Origin: Methylophilales bacterium
Lineage (GTDB): Bacteria > Pseudomonadota > Gammaproteobacteria > Burkholderiales > Methylophilaceae
Direction: 5' to 3'
Length of the DNA stretch: 54,475 bases
Assembly: GCA_021414145.1 (NCBI GenBank)
Contig: JAIOOY010000061.1
Location: 1 to 54,475, forward strand
Below are positions 26,146-30,192 of this stretch, one piece after another (position 1 is the first letter of the stretch; each line of letters opens with the position of its first letter). Under the pieces are notes generated by a model. That model was not told the origin of the DNA. It ran no database searches and saw nothing but the letters and a program-made list of their open reading frames with translations. The position numbers and the translations under genes are program-made.

Positions 26146-27768
26146 TTAAGTTGAGATAAGCAAGTTGTTGCTCATGGGTGTTGCGCGCAATTTATCCGCT
26201 TGCAATCTGTAGCTGGCCGGTATGTTAGTTAGTAACTCTTGTGTCACAGAGGGTAGTTTTTTACTTTCGATCAGGGTCTGCGCCAAACCACTCACACCCA
26301 GATTTTTACATATGTCCATAACGAGATTTTCAAAGGTTGCGGGCAGTACATTGTTTTTACCAGAGTAAGCAATTTCCCCGCTTAATCGCACTTCGATTTC
26401 TGTTGCAAGCGCGATAAGGATTACCTCGGCATCAAGAATATTGAGGTGGGTGTAAGGAAAGTCCAAGGGTGCATCAAGACCTTTGGCACGTAGCTTGGTG
26501 TAGGCGCGTACCCTTGACTCAACCGGACTGCCTACTCCACCCAGCATATGTTCTGTCGCTGTGACGGCAGCTTGTACTCCGTTAGGGTGCCGAATACCAT
26601 GGCTATAAAAAGTGTGCAACATGCCCGCCAGCAGTGTTTCGATCTTAAAGCCGTAATGCATCAACACGCTGCTAACCCCGATTAAATGATTTATGAACGG
26701 CCTGCCGCAAGGCCTGTAGCCACCATCCGTGAGAGCTTGTGCCAGTCGGTAGGCATCAGACAACTGTTTCAATTCTTGAGTGGTATAACCAGCTTCAGCA
26801 GCTTGATCCAGAAGATCTGAACGGGTTTGTTTGAGCTCTGATTTTTGCATGGGAGTGTGGCATGCAGTACTTCCAAGAAAAGTGGCGAGAATAGGGTCTA
26901 TTTCCGCAGCAAGTTTTTTCAGGTGTTTCCTCAGTAAATCAAATGCCTTGGGATGGTCTAGCACTTGCCATTTTTCACAATAGGCTTGAATGCTGGTCTC
27001 GACTGCTGCGACAGAATATCGCCAACGATAAACGGCAAGATCTTCCAGCCGATATGGGGCATAGTGCAGAAAATCCACACGAGACGTGGGTTCTAAATAA
27101 ACCTTATAGCCCTGTTGTTTAATGGCGAGAGAGATATCTATATGTTTGTGGGCATTCAATAAGCGCTCGTCAAATCCACCTATTTTTTTGAGTACCTCGG
27201 TTCTTATCAGCATGCAGTGGAACTCCATAAAATCGCACTCGCTACGTGTGAGTTTATGCCTGACAATATCAAGATTTACATTTTCAAAAAGATGCTCTTG
27301 CAGTTCTATAATACCTTCGGGGGTGGTTACTTTCTTGATATAACCCGCCGCCATATGGATGACGGATAGCTTATTGCCATCACCCCACATATACAACGGC
27401 CCCACGATGCCGGCGTTGGTTTCGTCGGCACAAGAGACTAGTGGCTCCAGCCAGCCAGGCGAAACCATTACATCGTTATCAATGCACACAAGGTAGTCAG
27501 TAGTTATGGAACCCAGCACATGGTTGCGCAGTTGGTGTGGCCATAGCGGTTCGTCGTGGCGTACTAGCTCCAACCCCCATTCTGCCGAGCGTTGCTCAAG
27601 ACGTTGCCATAGCCATTCCGGGGTTTGCCCGTCGGTATAAATGAAACGATACGGCATGGATGTGTTGGCTACTACACATTCAATTGCTGCCTCGGTTAGA
27701 GCGTGGCGTTCACGCGCAATCATCAGTATGGTTACGCGGGGCTGTGATGTTGTAAGCAGGTTCATCAT
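26146..27768 (-). CDS. GT2 glycosyltransferase fused to an HD-like (DUF6817-type) domain
   Basis: 540 residues. The N-terminal half (about 10-240) is a GT-A glycosyltransferase of family 2: VTILMIARERHALTEAAIE, nucleotide-sugar/metal motif IDND (96-99), and acceptor region GGFDERLLNAHKHIDISLAIKQQGY. The C-terminal part (about 335-480) resembles HD-domain/DUF6817 proteins: GGYRPCGRPFINHLIGVSSVLMHYG and AGMLHTFYSHG. The Asp expected in a canonical HD phosphohydrolase is Thr here (LHT), so hydrolase activity is doubtful. The start is 8 bases after the XRE-ArgA stop, so the two are probably one operon. Sugar donor and acceptor unknown. Confidence 0.7.
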   Translation of the reverse strand: MMNLLTTSQPRVTILMIARERHALTEAAIECVVANTSMPYRFIYTDGQTPEWLWQRLEQRSAEWGLELVRHDEPLWPHQLRNHVLGSITTDYLVCIDNDVMVSPGWLEPLVSCADETNAGIVGPLYMWGDGNKLSVIHMAAGYIKKVTTPEGIIELQEHLFENVNLDIVRHKLTRSECDFMEFHCMLIRTEVLKKIGGFDERLLNAHKHIDISLAIKQQGYKVYLEPTSRVDFLHYAPYRLEDLAVYRWRYSVAAVETSIQAYCEKWQVLDHPKAFDLLRKHLKKLAAEIDPILATFLGSTACHTPMQKSELKQTRSDLLDQAAEAGYTTQELKQLSDAYRLAQALTDGGYRPCGRPFINHLIGVSSVLMHYGFKIETLLAGMLHTFYSHGIRHPNGVQAAVTATEHMLGGVGSPVESRVRAYTKLRAKGLDAPLDFPYTHLNILDAEVILIALATEIEVRLSGEIAYSGKNNVLPATFENLVMDICKNLGVSGLAQTLIESKKLPSVTQELLTNIPASYRLQADKLRATPMSNNLLIST

Positions 27769-27776
27769 GGTCTGTT

Positions 27777-29333
27777 CTAAAGTTGCTTTATGAACACTTT
27801 AGACCGCCGCTGCAAGTTGTACAACTGCTGCCGTGCTTCGGGCAGTGCTGATACATCAGCCTCCACAAAACCGCGTTCGATGAACCAATGCGCGGTGCGA
27901 GTGGTGAGTACGAACAGGGATTTAATCCCGCGTTCAATGGCTTGTTCCTCACAGTAATGCAGCAGTTTCTCGCCGCGACCACCACCACGCATGGATGCAT
28001 CCATTGCCATGCAGGCGAGCTCGGCTTTCTGTTCACCTGCAAACGGATACAGTGCGGCACAACCGATGATGCGTTTATCGCGCTCCATCACCACAAAATG
28101 GTTGACTTCCATTTCTATGCGTTCACGTTCACGCCTCACCAGCACGCCTTCGTTTTCCAGGGGTTCGATGAGTTGCAAGATACCTCCCACATCGTCAATC
28201 TGCGCAGGGCGCATGGATTCAAGTGCGATTTCGGTCACCATCGTACCTATACCGTCGTGAGTGAACAGTTCTTGAATAATGGCACCGTCGGTATGGCGAC
28301 TGATGAGATGGGTGCGCGCCACGCCTTGGTCGCATGCCTTGATGGCGGCGGGTAAGTAGTAGGCTTCATCTTCGCTTATTGTTTTTTCAGCGTTAGTTTC
28401 AACGTGACGCAGCAGATTTCTTGCCTTGTCCGCGGTCATCTCGCGCAAAAGTTCGCCGCGCAGATTATGAACGCCAGAGGCATCCATCAGAAAAATCAGC
28501 TTATCTGCATCCAACGCAATCGCCGCGTTCACTGCCACATCTTCCAGCGACAAATTGAATACCTCGCCTGTAGGCGAGTAACCAAGGGGTGAGAGCAGCA
28601 CCAGTTCGCCATCATCCAACCGCTTCTGTATGCCGACAGCGTCTACTTTGCGGACTTCTCCAGTATGTTGCAAATCTACGCCATCCAGCACACCCACTGG
28701 CTTGGCAGTCACAAAATTACCGCTGGCGACACGAATATCCGAGCCTGCCATCGGCGAATTAACCAAACCCGTAGAAAGCAACGCTTCAATTTCTACACGT
28801 ATCGCGCCATTAGCTTCTTTGACTGCTTCCATAGCGATGTCATCGGTAACGCGTAACCCTTGTACCAGCTTGGTTTCAAGTTTGCTACGTTTGAGCTTGG
28901 ATTCAATCTGTGGCCGTGCTCCATGCACTAACACCAGCCGAACCTCCAAGCTGGCAAGCAGATTGAGATCGTGCGACAGTGCAACAAATTGGCCATCAGC
29001 GATAACCTCTCCACCAAAAGCGATGACGAAAGTACGTCCGCCAAACGCGTGGATATACGGTGCGACAGAACGAAACCAGCGCACGAATTCCTGTGGTTGC
29101 GTGAGGCTTGGCCTTTTATTTGCGTTATACGCATTTTCTGATTGTGCGTAAAGTTGCGATGGAGTGCAATGTAGCGCCCCGCAAAGCTTGTGCAACAAGG
29201 TTTCTGAAAACCCCTGAACGCCACGTTCTATACGTGATAAGTTGCCGCTATCGGCTTCAACCAGTTGTGCAAGTTGTTGCAGGGTAAGGTTTAGCGACTT
29301 GCGTTTTTTACGTATGACATGGCCGAGTTGCAT
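27777..29333 (-). CDS. argA: N-acetylglutamate synthase (ArgA) with N-terminal XRE helix-turn-helix fusion
   Basis: 518 residues. Residues about 5-62 form an XRE/Cro-type helix-turn-helix (IRKKRKSLNLTLQQLAQLVE, then SGNLSRIERG). From about 80 on, the protein follows ArgA: FVRWFRSVAPYIHAFGGRTFVIAFGGE, RLVLVHGARPQIE, the amino-acid-kinase-like domain to about 370, then a GNAT domain (about 375-510, MRGGGRGEKLLHYCEEQA; RTAHWFIERGF). Classical ArgA is about 440 residues, so the extra about 75 residues are the DNA-binding part. The enzyme acetylates glutamate from acetyl-CoA to start arginine synthesis. The frame is continuous with no alternative start close to the ArgA domain. Upstream lies an AT-rich repeat-bearing stretch. 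Confidence 0.88.
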   Translation of the reverse strand: MQLGHVIRKKRKSLNLTLQQLAQLVEADSGNLSRIERGVQGFSETLLHKLCGALHCTPSQLYAQSENAYNANKRPSLTQPQEFVRWFRSVAPYIHAFGGRTFVIAFGGEVIADGQFVALSHDLNLLASLEVRLVLVHGARPQIESKLKRSKLETKLVQGLRVTDDIAMEAVKEANGAIRVEIEALLSTGLVNSPMAGSDIRVASGNFVTAKPVGVLDGVDLQHTGEVRKVDAVGIQKRLDDGELVLLSPLGYSPTGEVFNLSLEDVAVNAAIALDADKLIFLMDASGVHNLRGELLREMTADKARNLLRHVETNAEKTISEDEAYYLPAAIKACDQGVARTHLISRHTDGAIIQELFTHDGIGTMVTEIALESMRPAQIDDVGGILQLIEPLENEGVLVRRERERIEMEVNHFVVMERDKRIIGCAALYPFAGEQKAELACMAMDASMRGGGRGEKLLHYCEEQAIERGIKSLFVLTTRTAHWFIERGFVEADVSALPEARQQLYNLQRRSKVFIKQL

Positions 29334-29339
29334 ATATAT

Positions 29340-29390
29340 AAAAATAATGTAAATAATGCATAAATGTAATATAAATATGTATATATTGCA
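29340..29390. promoter_or_regulatory. AT-rich promoter/operator candidate upstream of the XRE-ArgA gene
   Basis: Very AT-rich stretch in the gap between the XRE-ArgA gene and rpiA. It contains two direct copies of AATGTAA (29346-29352 and 29363-29369, 17 bases apart). It also has an imperfect inverted repeat GTAATATA / TATATTGC (29366-29373 and 29382-29389, seven of eight pairs). The position immediately before the XRE-fusion start fits an autoregulatory operator, but this is unproven. Confidence 0.4.
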
Positions 29391-29514
29391 AATTAATGGA
29401 TGTGCTCGGTGTTTCGGGTATTTACCCAGTGTTTTAACTTGAGCCTCAACTCAAAAAAGAGGTAGCCTGTGCATTTCGCATAAGGCGATTTTTTTTGTGG
29501 TGAAGGAGAGCGTT

Positions 29515-30192
29515 ATGAGTGATAAAGAATTGGTGGCGCTACACGCTGCGAATTTGGTGAAAGATGGTATGGTGGTAGGCTTAGGCACGGGTTCTACTGC
29601 CAATTTGTTCATCGAGGCGCTAGCTAGGCGGCGCAATGAGCAAGGCTTAAAGGTGACCGCGGCTTCAAGTTCGGTAGTGAGCACCATCAAAGCCCAATCA
29701 CTAGGTTTGCCGCTGATTTCTATCGAGCATTTCTCGCGTCTGGATTTGTATGTGGATGGTGCGGACGAAGTTACGCCTGATATGACTTTGCTTAAAGGTC
29801 GCGGCTCGGATTTGGTGCGTGAAAAGTTAATGGCGAAAGCAGCGGATCAGTTTTTAGTGCTGGTGGATCAAAGTAAGCTGGTAAGCCGTATCGGAGAGAA
29901 GTTTGCGATTCCTATTGAAGTGATTCCTTTTGCTTGGCAGTTGGCAAAACGCAGTTTGGAAGCTATAGGTGGGCGTGGGGATTTACGGCAAAATGCCAGT
30001 AAAGACGGCTTAGCTATGACCTCACATGGTAGCTTGGTTTTGGACATGACGTTTGATGCTGGCATGAGCGCAGAACAACTGAATGCGGCGTTAAACGCTA
30101 CTCCTGGTGTGGTGGAACACGGAATTTTTCTGGGGCTGGCCAGTGCGGTTATCATTGCTACCGATGGCAAAGTTGAGGAACGTCGGGGCTAG
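29515..30192 (+). CDS. rpiA: Ribose-5-phosphate isomerase A
   Basis: Interconverts ribose-5-phosphate and ribulose-5-phosphate in the pentose phosphate/Calvin pathways. 225 residues from ATG at 29515, chosen for the AAGGAG ribosome site 8 bases upstream. The protein begins MSDKELVALHAANLVKDGMV. Family motifs: GLGTGSTANLFIEAL, DLYVDGADEVTPDMTLLKGRG (catalytic Asp cluster) and a C-terminal PGVVEHGIFLGLA. Confidence 0.95.
   Translation: MSDKELVALHAANLVKDGMVVGLGTGSTANLFIEALARRRNEQGLKVTAASSSVVSTIKAQSLGLPLISIEHFSRLDLYVDGADEVTPDMTLLKGRGSDLVREKLMAKAADQFLVLVDQSKLVSRIGEKFAIPIEVIPFAWQLAKRSLEAIGGRGDLRQNASKDGLAMTSHGSLVLDMTFDAGMSAEQLNAALNATPGVVEHGIFLGLASAVIIATDGKVEERRG

Follow-up and report, generated by a model that had tools for sequence, protein, structure and literature searches.

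PutA and BirA are enzymes with a DNA-binding domain of their own, albeit other enzymes, with other DNA-binding folds, than the protein considered here, HTH-ArgA, in which a helix-turn-helix (HTH) of the XRE type precedes an N-acetylglutamate synthase. To our knowledge, the closest natural parallel to HTH-ArgA is NadR. NadR of the Enterobacterales is a trifunctional enzyme with an N-terminal HTH that occurs in one lineage only and acts as a metabolite-responsive repressor of the genes of its own pathway (PMC12421817), and HTH-ArgA is likewise a metabolic enzyme with a lineage-restricted N-terminal HTH. NadR represses several genes, whereas the putative operator pairs of HTH-ArgA were found mainly at its own gene, and the enzyme domains are unrelated; neither the 13 Pfam matches of HTH-ArgA nor the 25 of its 28 NCBIfam matches that were listed include the NMN adenylyltransferase and ribosylnicotinamide kinase domains of NadR.

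In architecture, the closest parallel appears to be a laboratory-built protein, the Q1 chimera of the BzdR type, which joins an HTH-XRE domain to a shikimate kinase and which reportedly keeps its enzyme activity and binds operators (PMC3602430). Natural BzdR is a regulator of benzoate catabolism without enzyme activity, the active form having been made in the laboratory (PMC3602430). HTH-ArgA shares with BzdR and Q1 the order of XRE HTH, linker and kinase-fold metabolic domain. By contrast with natural BzdR, HTH-ArgA appears to have kept its enzyme, and it looks like a natural counterpart of the enzyme-to-regulator intermediate engineered for BzdR (PMC3602430).

Like classical ArgA (TIGR01890; N. 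gonorrhoeae NAGS 2R8V), HTH-ArgA has an amino-acid-kinase-like (AAK) domain, a GNAT domain and an arginine motif, together spanning about residues 79-518; unlike it, the classical ArgA proteins of the other families sampled had no HTH that we could see. Like ArgR/AhrC, HTH-ArgA would provide arginine-dependent repression of arg genes, but ArgR/AhrC is a separate protein of another family (PF01316), which is absent from the Pfam matches of HTH-ArgA. In a published survey, ArgR is highly conserved in many gammaproteobacterial groups and absent from other proteobacterial classes (PMC5343134), which raises the question of how transcription of the arginine pathway is controlled in betaproteobacteria. 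Consistent with that survey, no ArgR (PF01316) match exceeded the cut-off in the 100 genomes described below, two weak sub-cut-off matches occurring in G018 and G025. The open-access full-text literature, to which the search was confined (subscription papers lay outside its scope), yielded no description of an HTH-ArgA fusion; the two domains may well appear in automatic database annotations. We propose that HTH-ArgA is probably a bifunctional trigger enzyme, that is, an N-acetylglutamate synthase that doubles as a dedicated autorepressor of its own promoter, with arginine most likely the co-repressor. As such it offers a concrete, testable answer to the question of arginine-synthesis control for one family of methylotrophs, the methanol-eating Methylophilaceae.

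Reading frame and domain architecture

The window (the whole 54,475-nt stretch analysed) is the entire contig C53 of a source genome of 1.45 Mb in 104 contigs, estimated to be 72% complete. Within it, hth-argA forms one uninterrupted frame of 518 codons that begins with the ATG at 29333 and has no stop codons or frameshifts (Table 1). The first-pass annotation had put the upper end at 29390, which is the edge of an operator rather than the start of the gene; its claim that an HTH and a full ArgA are joined in one frame is confirmed by the ORF, by Pfam and NCBIfam and by the family-wide frame. Pfam places HTH_31/HTH_3 above cut-off at residues 2-60, AA_kinase at 101-345 and Acetyltransf_1 (GNAT) at 401-479, and the ArgA equivalogs of NCBIfam cover residues 79-518 (PRK05279, 682.9 bits against a cut-off of 344; TIGR01890, 577.8 against 202.85). 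HTH-ArgA has the domain content of a classical ArgA, AAK plus GNAT across the full equivalog model, and also the HTH_3 family match and five-helix fold of an XRE (Cro/C1) domain. The full-length AlphaFold2 (AF2) model was of poor quality, chiefly in its AAK part (mean pLDDT 65.2 with 43 sequences), and the fold search with Foldseek therefore used only the model of HTH residues 1-72 (pLDDT 86.6), which superposed at 0.7-1.9 A rmsd on ClgR, C.BclI, SinR, P22 c2 and 434 Cro.

Table 1. Features of the hth-argA locus (positions in the window)
Feature	Position	Strand	Basis or remark
hth-argA (XRE helix-turn-helix + N-acetylglutamate synthase, 518 aa)	27777..29333	-	ORF, domains, family-wide conservation
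Cro/C1-type HTH, residues 1-62	29148..29333	-	Pfam, AF2 model, Foldseek, omega
Recognition helix, about residues 28-37			D-x-GNLSRIER
Variable linker, residues 63-79	29097..29147	-	pairwise identity 0.22, omega 0.34
Amino-acid-kinase-like, putative arginine-sensing domain, residues 80-368	28230..29096	-	Pfam, alignments
GNAT acetyltransferase domain, residues 372-518	27780..28220	-	Pfam, NCBIfam
Putative promoter: -35 TTGCAA (29391-29386), 17 bp, -10 TACATT (29368-29363)	29363..29391	-	family conservation
Putative operator 1 core, TGCAATATATACA	29378..29390	-	overlaps putative -35; best window matrix score
Putative operator 2 core, TGCATTATTTACA	29348..29360	-	30 bp downstream of operator 1, over putative start site; second-best matrix score

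That the fusion is an artefact of annotation or assembly, two genes having been joined via a frameshift or ArgA starting internally, is hardly credible. One locus (L046, in G033) does have its HTH and ArgA parts in different frames, but this break, the sole one, falls on a run of N, and the frame is open in the window and in the other family loci read, on which grounds the artefact was rejected. A separate ArgA start near residue 75, raised in advance as a way in which the fusion might fail, finds no plausible codon either: residues 63-83 contain no ATG, GTG or TTG, and the first candidate past the linker is the GTG of V84, within the conserved FVRWFR segment.

Distribution of the fusion and conservation of the HTH

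The spread of the fusion was examined in 100 genomes, comprising the window's own, 59 others of the same family (Methylophilaceae) and 40 from other families of the order. ArgA carries the HTH in all 59 relatives sampled. The match begins at residue 1-3 of HTH-ArgA in 53 of these and at residue 8-9 in four genomes of one small-genome genus; in G009 the alignment runs from residue 1 once the locus is read directly, and in G033 the HTH is present, in another frame, across the run of N. ArgA was matched in 38 of the 40 genomes from other families (two had no match), with alignments starting at residue 58 or later, so that the check on phylogenetic spread called for at the outset gives an aligned HTH in 59/59 family relatives and in 0/38 ArgA matches from other families. 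Seven of the 38 N-termini were read directly and contained no HTH; the other 31 were judged by alignment start, where a quite different HTH is formally possible. A class-level search matched 157 of 229 genomes (own included) at E up to 1e-40. Among the matches listed, the HTH was reached solely by the window's own; the matches in G236 and G310 start further in, at residues 31 and 46, and run through stop codons, and apart from these three none of the listed matches starts before residue 55.

The nearest named relative of HTH-ArgA (95% identity) comes from a Methylophilaceae MAG, and further named relatives belong to Methylotenera, Methylobacillus, Methylovorus, Methylophilus and Methylopumilus. 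Of 209 related stretches the best 80 were kept, and every one of these aligns from residue 1 or 3; a single alignment stops at residue 474, where its contig ends. A MAG labelled Sulfuritalea (L123) also carries the fusion and may be either a mislabelled Methylophilaceae bin or a case of transfer. In a tree of 51 ArgA domains, the 7 unfused sequences are separated from the 44 fused with support 100/100, which is compatible with a single fusion event. The sample was a random 35 ordinary family members, the window, two distant lineages and 7 outgroups; the root is the midpoint, and the outgroups and two small-genome lineages have long branches and odd composition, which leaves finer placement unsure. 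In one small-genome lineage (L038, L047, L053 and L059, from G016, G034, G045 and G055), ArgA has diverged to 37-40% identity and the linker is very short, yet the HTH persists, as do paired operator-like sites 41-42 bp apart.

Pairwise identity, averaged over 43 family members, is 0.67 in the HTH, rising to 0.90 over residues 27-38, against 0.22 in the linker, 0.83 in the AAK domain and 0.72 in the GNAT domain, and the distance from Y62 to F83 ranges from 20 to 51 aa. For one species pair (the window and the 95%-identical L071), dN/dS is 0.058 in the HTH, 0.34 in the linker and 0.032 in ArgA. These figures indicate that the HTH is under purifying selection and that the linker alone drifts; a DNA-binding domain would thus appear to be kept by selection within an enzyme chain, as is expected of a trigger enzyme.

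Paired palindromes at the hth-argA promoter

Upstream of hth-argA, the family loci have two TGYN7RCA palindromes around the -10 region, usually 30 bp apart. The units in the window are two direct copies of TGYA-N5-TRCA (29390-29378 and 29360-29348). The first-pass annotation had drawn attention to AT-rich repeats upstream of the start, and these are real, but the half-sites that it named, GTAATATA and TATATTGC, are not the conserved units and were rejected as the operator, the family alignment giving TGYA-N5-TRCA instead. Its broader idea of an autoregulatory operator gains support from the conserved tandem operator here, the family-wide fusion and the conserved recognition helix, a stronger case than a single sequence can make. 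The putative palindromic operator thus lies at the presumed target promoter, as would be expected for an XRE regulator.

For counting, we took the 148 loci with an ArgA match, removed L046 (run of N) and the 7 outgroups and merged identical coding sequences, which left 104 non-redundant loci; these share ancestry, so that the counts are not independent, and that for L034 is blurred by an assumed start that is probably too far downstream. In 69/104 loci, the 120 bp before the start hold a TGYN7RCA pair spaced by 28-32 bp, the spacing being exactly 30 bp in 58 of the 76 such pairs; over 300 rounds of dinucleotide-preserving shuffling, a mean of 0.04 loci (maximum 2) had a pair of this kind. At least a single site was found in 100/104 loci, against a shuffle mean of 13.8 (maximum 23). 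The 35 loci that lack a pair of this spacing divide into 9 with a wider pair (40-43 or 50-53 bp), 22 with one site and 4 with none. Two distant lineages (38-58% identity) keep site pairs 41-42 or 50-51 bp apart, spacings that are, like 30 bp, near whole turns of the helix. The TGYN7RCA pattern is post hoc, since it was relaxed from TGYA-N5-TRCA after the sequences had been seen; it is controlled by the shuffled loci and by the remaining sequence of the 104 loci. That remaining sequence amounts to 591,966 bases and holds 7 pairs of the 28-32 bp kind, and none of 139 AT-rich segments (120 bases, at least 70% AT) holds one. With the strict pattern and up to 220 nt upstream, 57/104 loci have a site and 38/104 have two (shuffle means 2.6 and 0.045). 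The TGY and RCA bases are invariant by construction in the aligned operator set.

Among the 58 loci with an exact 30-bp pair, a T-A-N3-T lying 17 bp past the TTG of operator 1 is 97-98% conserved. Such conservation would befit a -10 element, which would place operator 1 across the -35 element and operator 2 across the start site. The window promoter matches 8 of 12 consensus bases, and a generic promoter scan of the window (threshold 9) gave nothing above threshold.

A further clue comes from residue 30 of the recognition helix, which is Gly in 99/104 loci, every one of which has at least one TGYN7RCA site. The remaining five loci (L039, L048, L146, L148 and L150, from Methylophilus and close relatives) have Ser30; four are without a site and one has a single distant site at -117. 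Their promoters keep TTTGCA-like half-sites but have lost the partner halves, leaving the operator region non-palindromic. The coincidence of palindrome loss with Gly30 to Ser is suggestive rather than statistical, as the substitution was probably a single evolutionary event. The helix also shows less frequent substitutions (Ile35 to Val or Met, Arg34 to Lys, Arg37 to Gln), in loci that have kept their sites.

To look beyond this promoter, an operator matrix and a tandem profile (R1) were built from 43 promoters including the window's; matches at those promoters are by construction, and the information added lies in the scarcity of matches elsewhere. Across the window, the two top matrix scores, 19.6 at 29376-29392 and 18.4 at 29346-29362, are the two operators. 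The third (13.4, at 29119-29135) falls in the linker-coding part of hth-argA and may be an auxiliary operator or chance. R1 matched the hth-argA promoter with E 2.3e-10, along with two weak overlapping matches on the opposite strand of the same stretch, and no other place in the window's genome. R1 was also run against 60 genomes, 37 from the family (the window's own among them) and 23 from other families; 27 of the 60 gave a match at E up to 0.1. The hth-argA promoter was matched in 22/37 family genomes and was always the best match there; G014, G015 and G034 had a single weak match away from it (E 0.03-0.09), and 12/37 had none at E up to 0.1. The genomes without a match include lineages with degenerate, differently spaced or single sites, and absence is weak evidence because at most 99 candidates per genome were scored under strict filters. 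One extra weak match each was found in G006 and G029, inside ORFs that by eye seem unrelated to arginine, and two genomes of other families had one weak match each (E 0.02 and 0.07), away from argA. The argG and argC loci, 30 for each gene at about 4 kb per locus and 24 of either set from the family, contained no operator pair. With these null counts and the G006 and G029 matches lying in unrelated-looking ORFs, a wider arg regulon is so far unsupported. Upstream of unfused argA in the 7 outgroup loci there is no pair, and one loose single site, in L064.

Probable autorepression, arginine and genomic context

HTH-ArgA probably switches its own gene off, since two likely binding sites that match each other lie at the promoter of that gene; it is from the position of these operators that we infer repression, and DNA binding by the HTH, oligomer geometry, arginine dependence and enzymatic activity are likewise predictions. 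The ArgA oligomer would bring XRE domains together in pairs, and the paired domains would bind the two palindromic operators, whose 30-bp spacing amounts to about three turns of the helix. With operator 1 over the -35 element and operator 2 over the start site, bound HTH-ArgA would exclude RNA polymerase, and argB would be repressed too where it adjoins hth-argA downstream.

In N. gonorrhoeae NAGS, arginine is bound by K201, E270 and the motif E-(L/I)-(F/M)-(T/S)-XX-G-X-G-T; it shifts the N-terminal helix and makes the hexamer ring about 10 A wider (PMC4490483). Alignment gives K278 and E355 as the equivalents of K201 and E270 in HTH-ArgA, the latter within E355LFTHDGIGT; both are invariant in 26/26 aligned sequences, the most distant lineage included. 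HTH-ArgA therefore possesses the arginine-binding motif and key lysine of classical ArgA, and it is because this site is conserved that arginine is the likely co-repressor. It would bind the AAK domain beside the N-terminal helix that carries the HTH; this helix is predicted at residues 80-90 of the AF2 model, with low confidence, and the HTH precedes it. The link from arginine to transcription proposed in the first-pass annotation fits these features, and coupling of arginine to DNA binding is plausible. More tentatively, the autorepressor may be gated by arginine, with arginine-driven helix movement setting the spacing of the paired HTHs to fit two operators whole turns apart and the enzyme ring serving as the allosteric machine. 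If true, one arginine site would control both catalysis and transcription, locally taking the role of ArgR, across a whole bacterial family.

The alternative that departs least from this proposal keeps the autorepressor but has the HTH sense enzyme concentration, as homeostatic negative feedback, with arginine acting on catalysis alone. The long, variable linker (20-51 aa) could uncouple the HTH from arginine-induced movement, its weak constraint argues against tight mechanical coupling, and operator pairs are present at hth-argA and at neither argG nor argC. We nonetheless regard this alternative as possible but rather unlikely. The HTH directly precedes the N-terminal helix that responds to arginine, and the hexamer of E. 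coli NAGS is stabilised by arginine (PMC4490483). Nor does the linker exclude coupling, because the synthetic BzdR-type chimera reportedly needed its linker to transmit the signal (PMC3602430).

Two further readings would take repression away from HTH-ArgA. HTH-operator binding is predicted from sequence and XRE folds can have other roles, so the operator pair might belong to a separate regulator, the fused HTH being an oligomerisation module or a relic; this is improbable given a nearly invariant recognition helix, an HTH apparently under purifying selection, operator pairs that are concentrated at the hth-argA promoter and missing upstream of unfused argA in the 7 outgroup loci, and the loss of the palindrome together with Gly30. 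That the HTH instead activates argA or a wider regulon is very improbable. Operator 1 touches the -35 element, a position used by some activators, and the limited depth of the R1 search leaves room for a single-site regulon, but operator 2 covers the putative start site, the argG and argC loci hold no pair, and the extra R1 matches in G006 and G029 lie in ORFs that by eye look unrelated to arginine.

In 6 of 8 relatives inspected by eye, argB is the next gene, in agreement with the argB places found by genome search where the genome is shared, and would thus share the hth-argA promoter. In the window, a glycosyltransferase gene follows and argB lies about 14 kb away. ArgJ exceeded the cut-off in 24/26 genomes; the two in which it did not, the window's own and G002, are both incomplete. 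In most relatives ArgA may therefore serve chiefly to replenish the acetyl pool. Divergent from hth-argA is a gene (29497-30192, plus strand) whose product by eye resembles ribose-5-phosphate isomerase, and several relatives have an RsmE-type-looking gene upstream in the same direction, also by eye. The glycosyltransferase gene (26146-27768, minus strand) follows hth-argA after an 8-nt gap and encodes a family-2 enzyme whose C-terminal region (about residues 320-424) is weakly like DUF6817/HD_4 and SpoT, DUF6817 and HD_4 both scoring below cut-off, an unusual combination with a glycosyltransferase.
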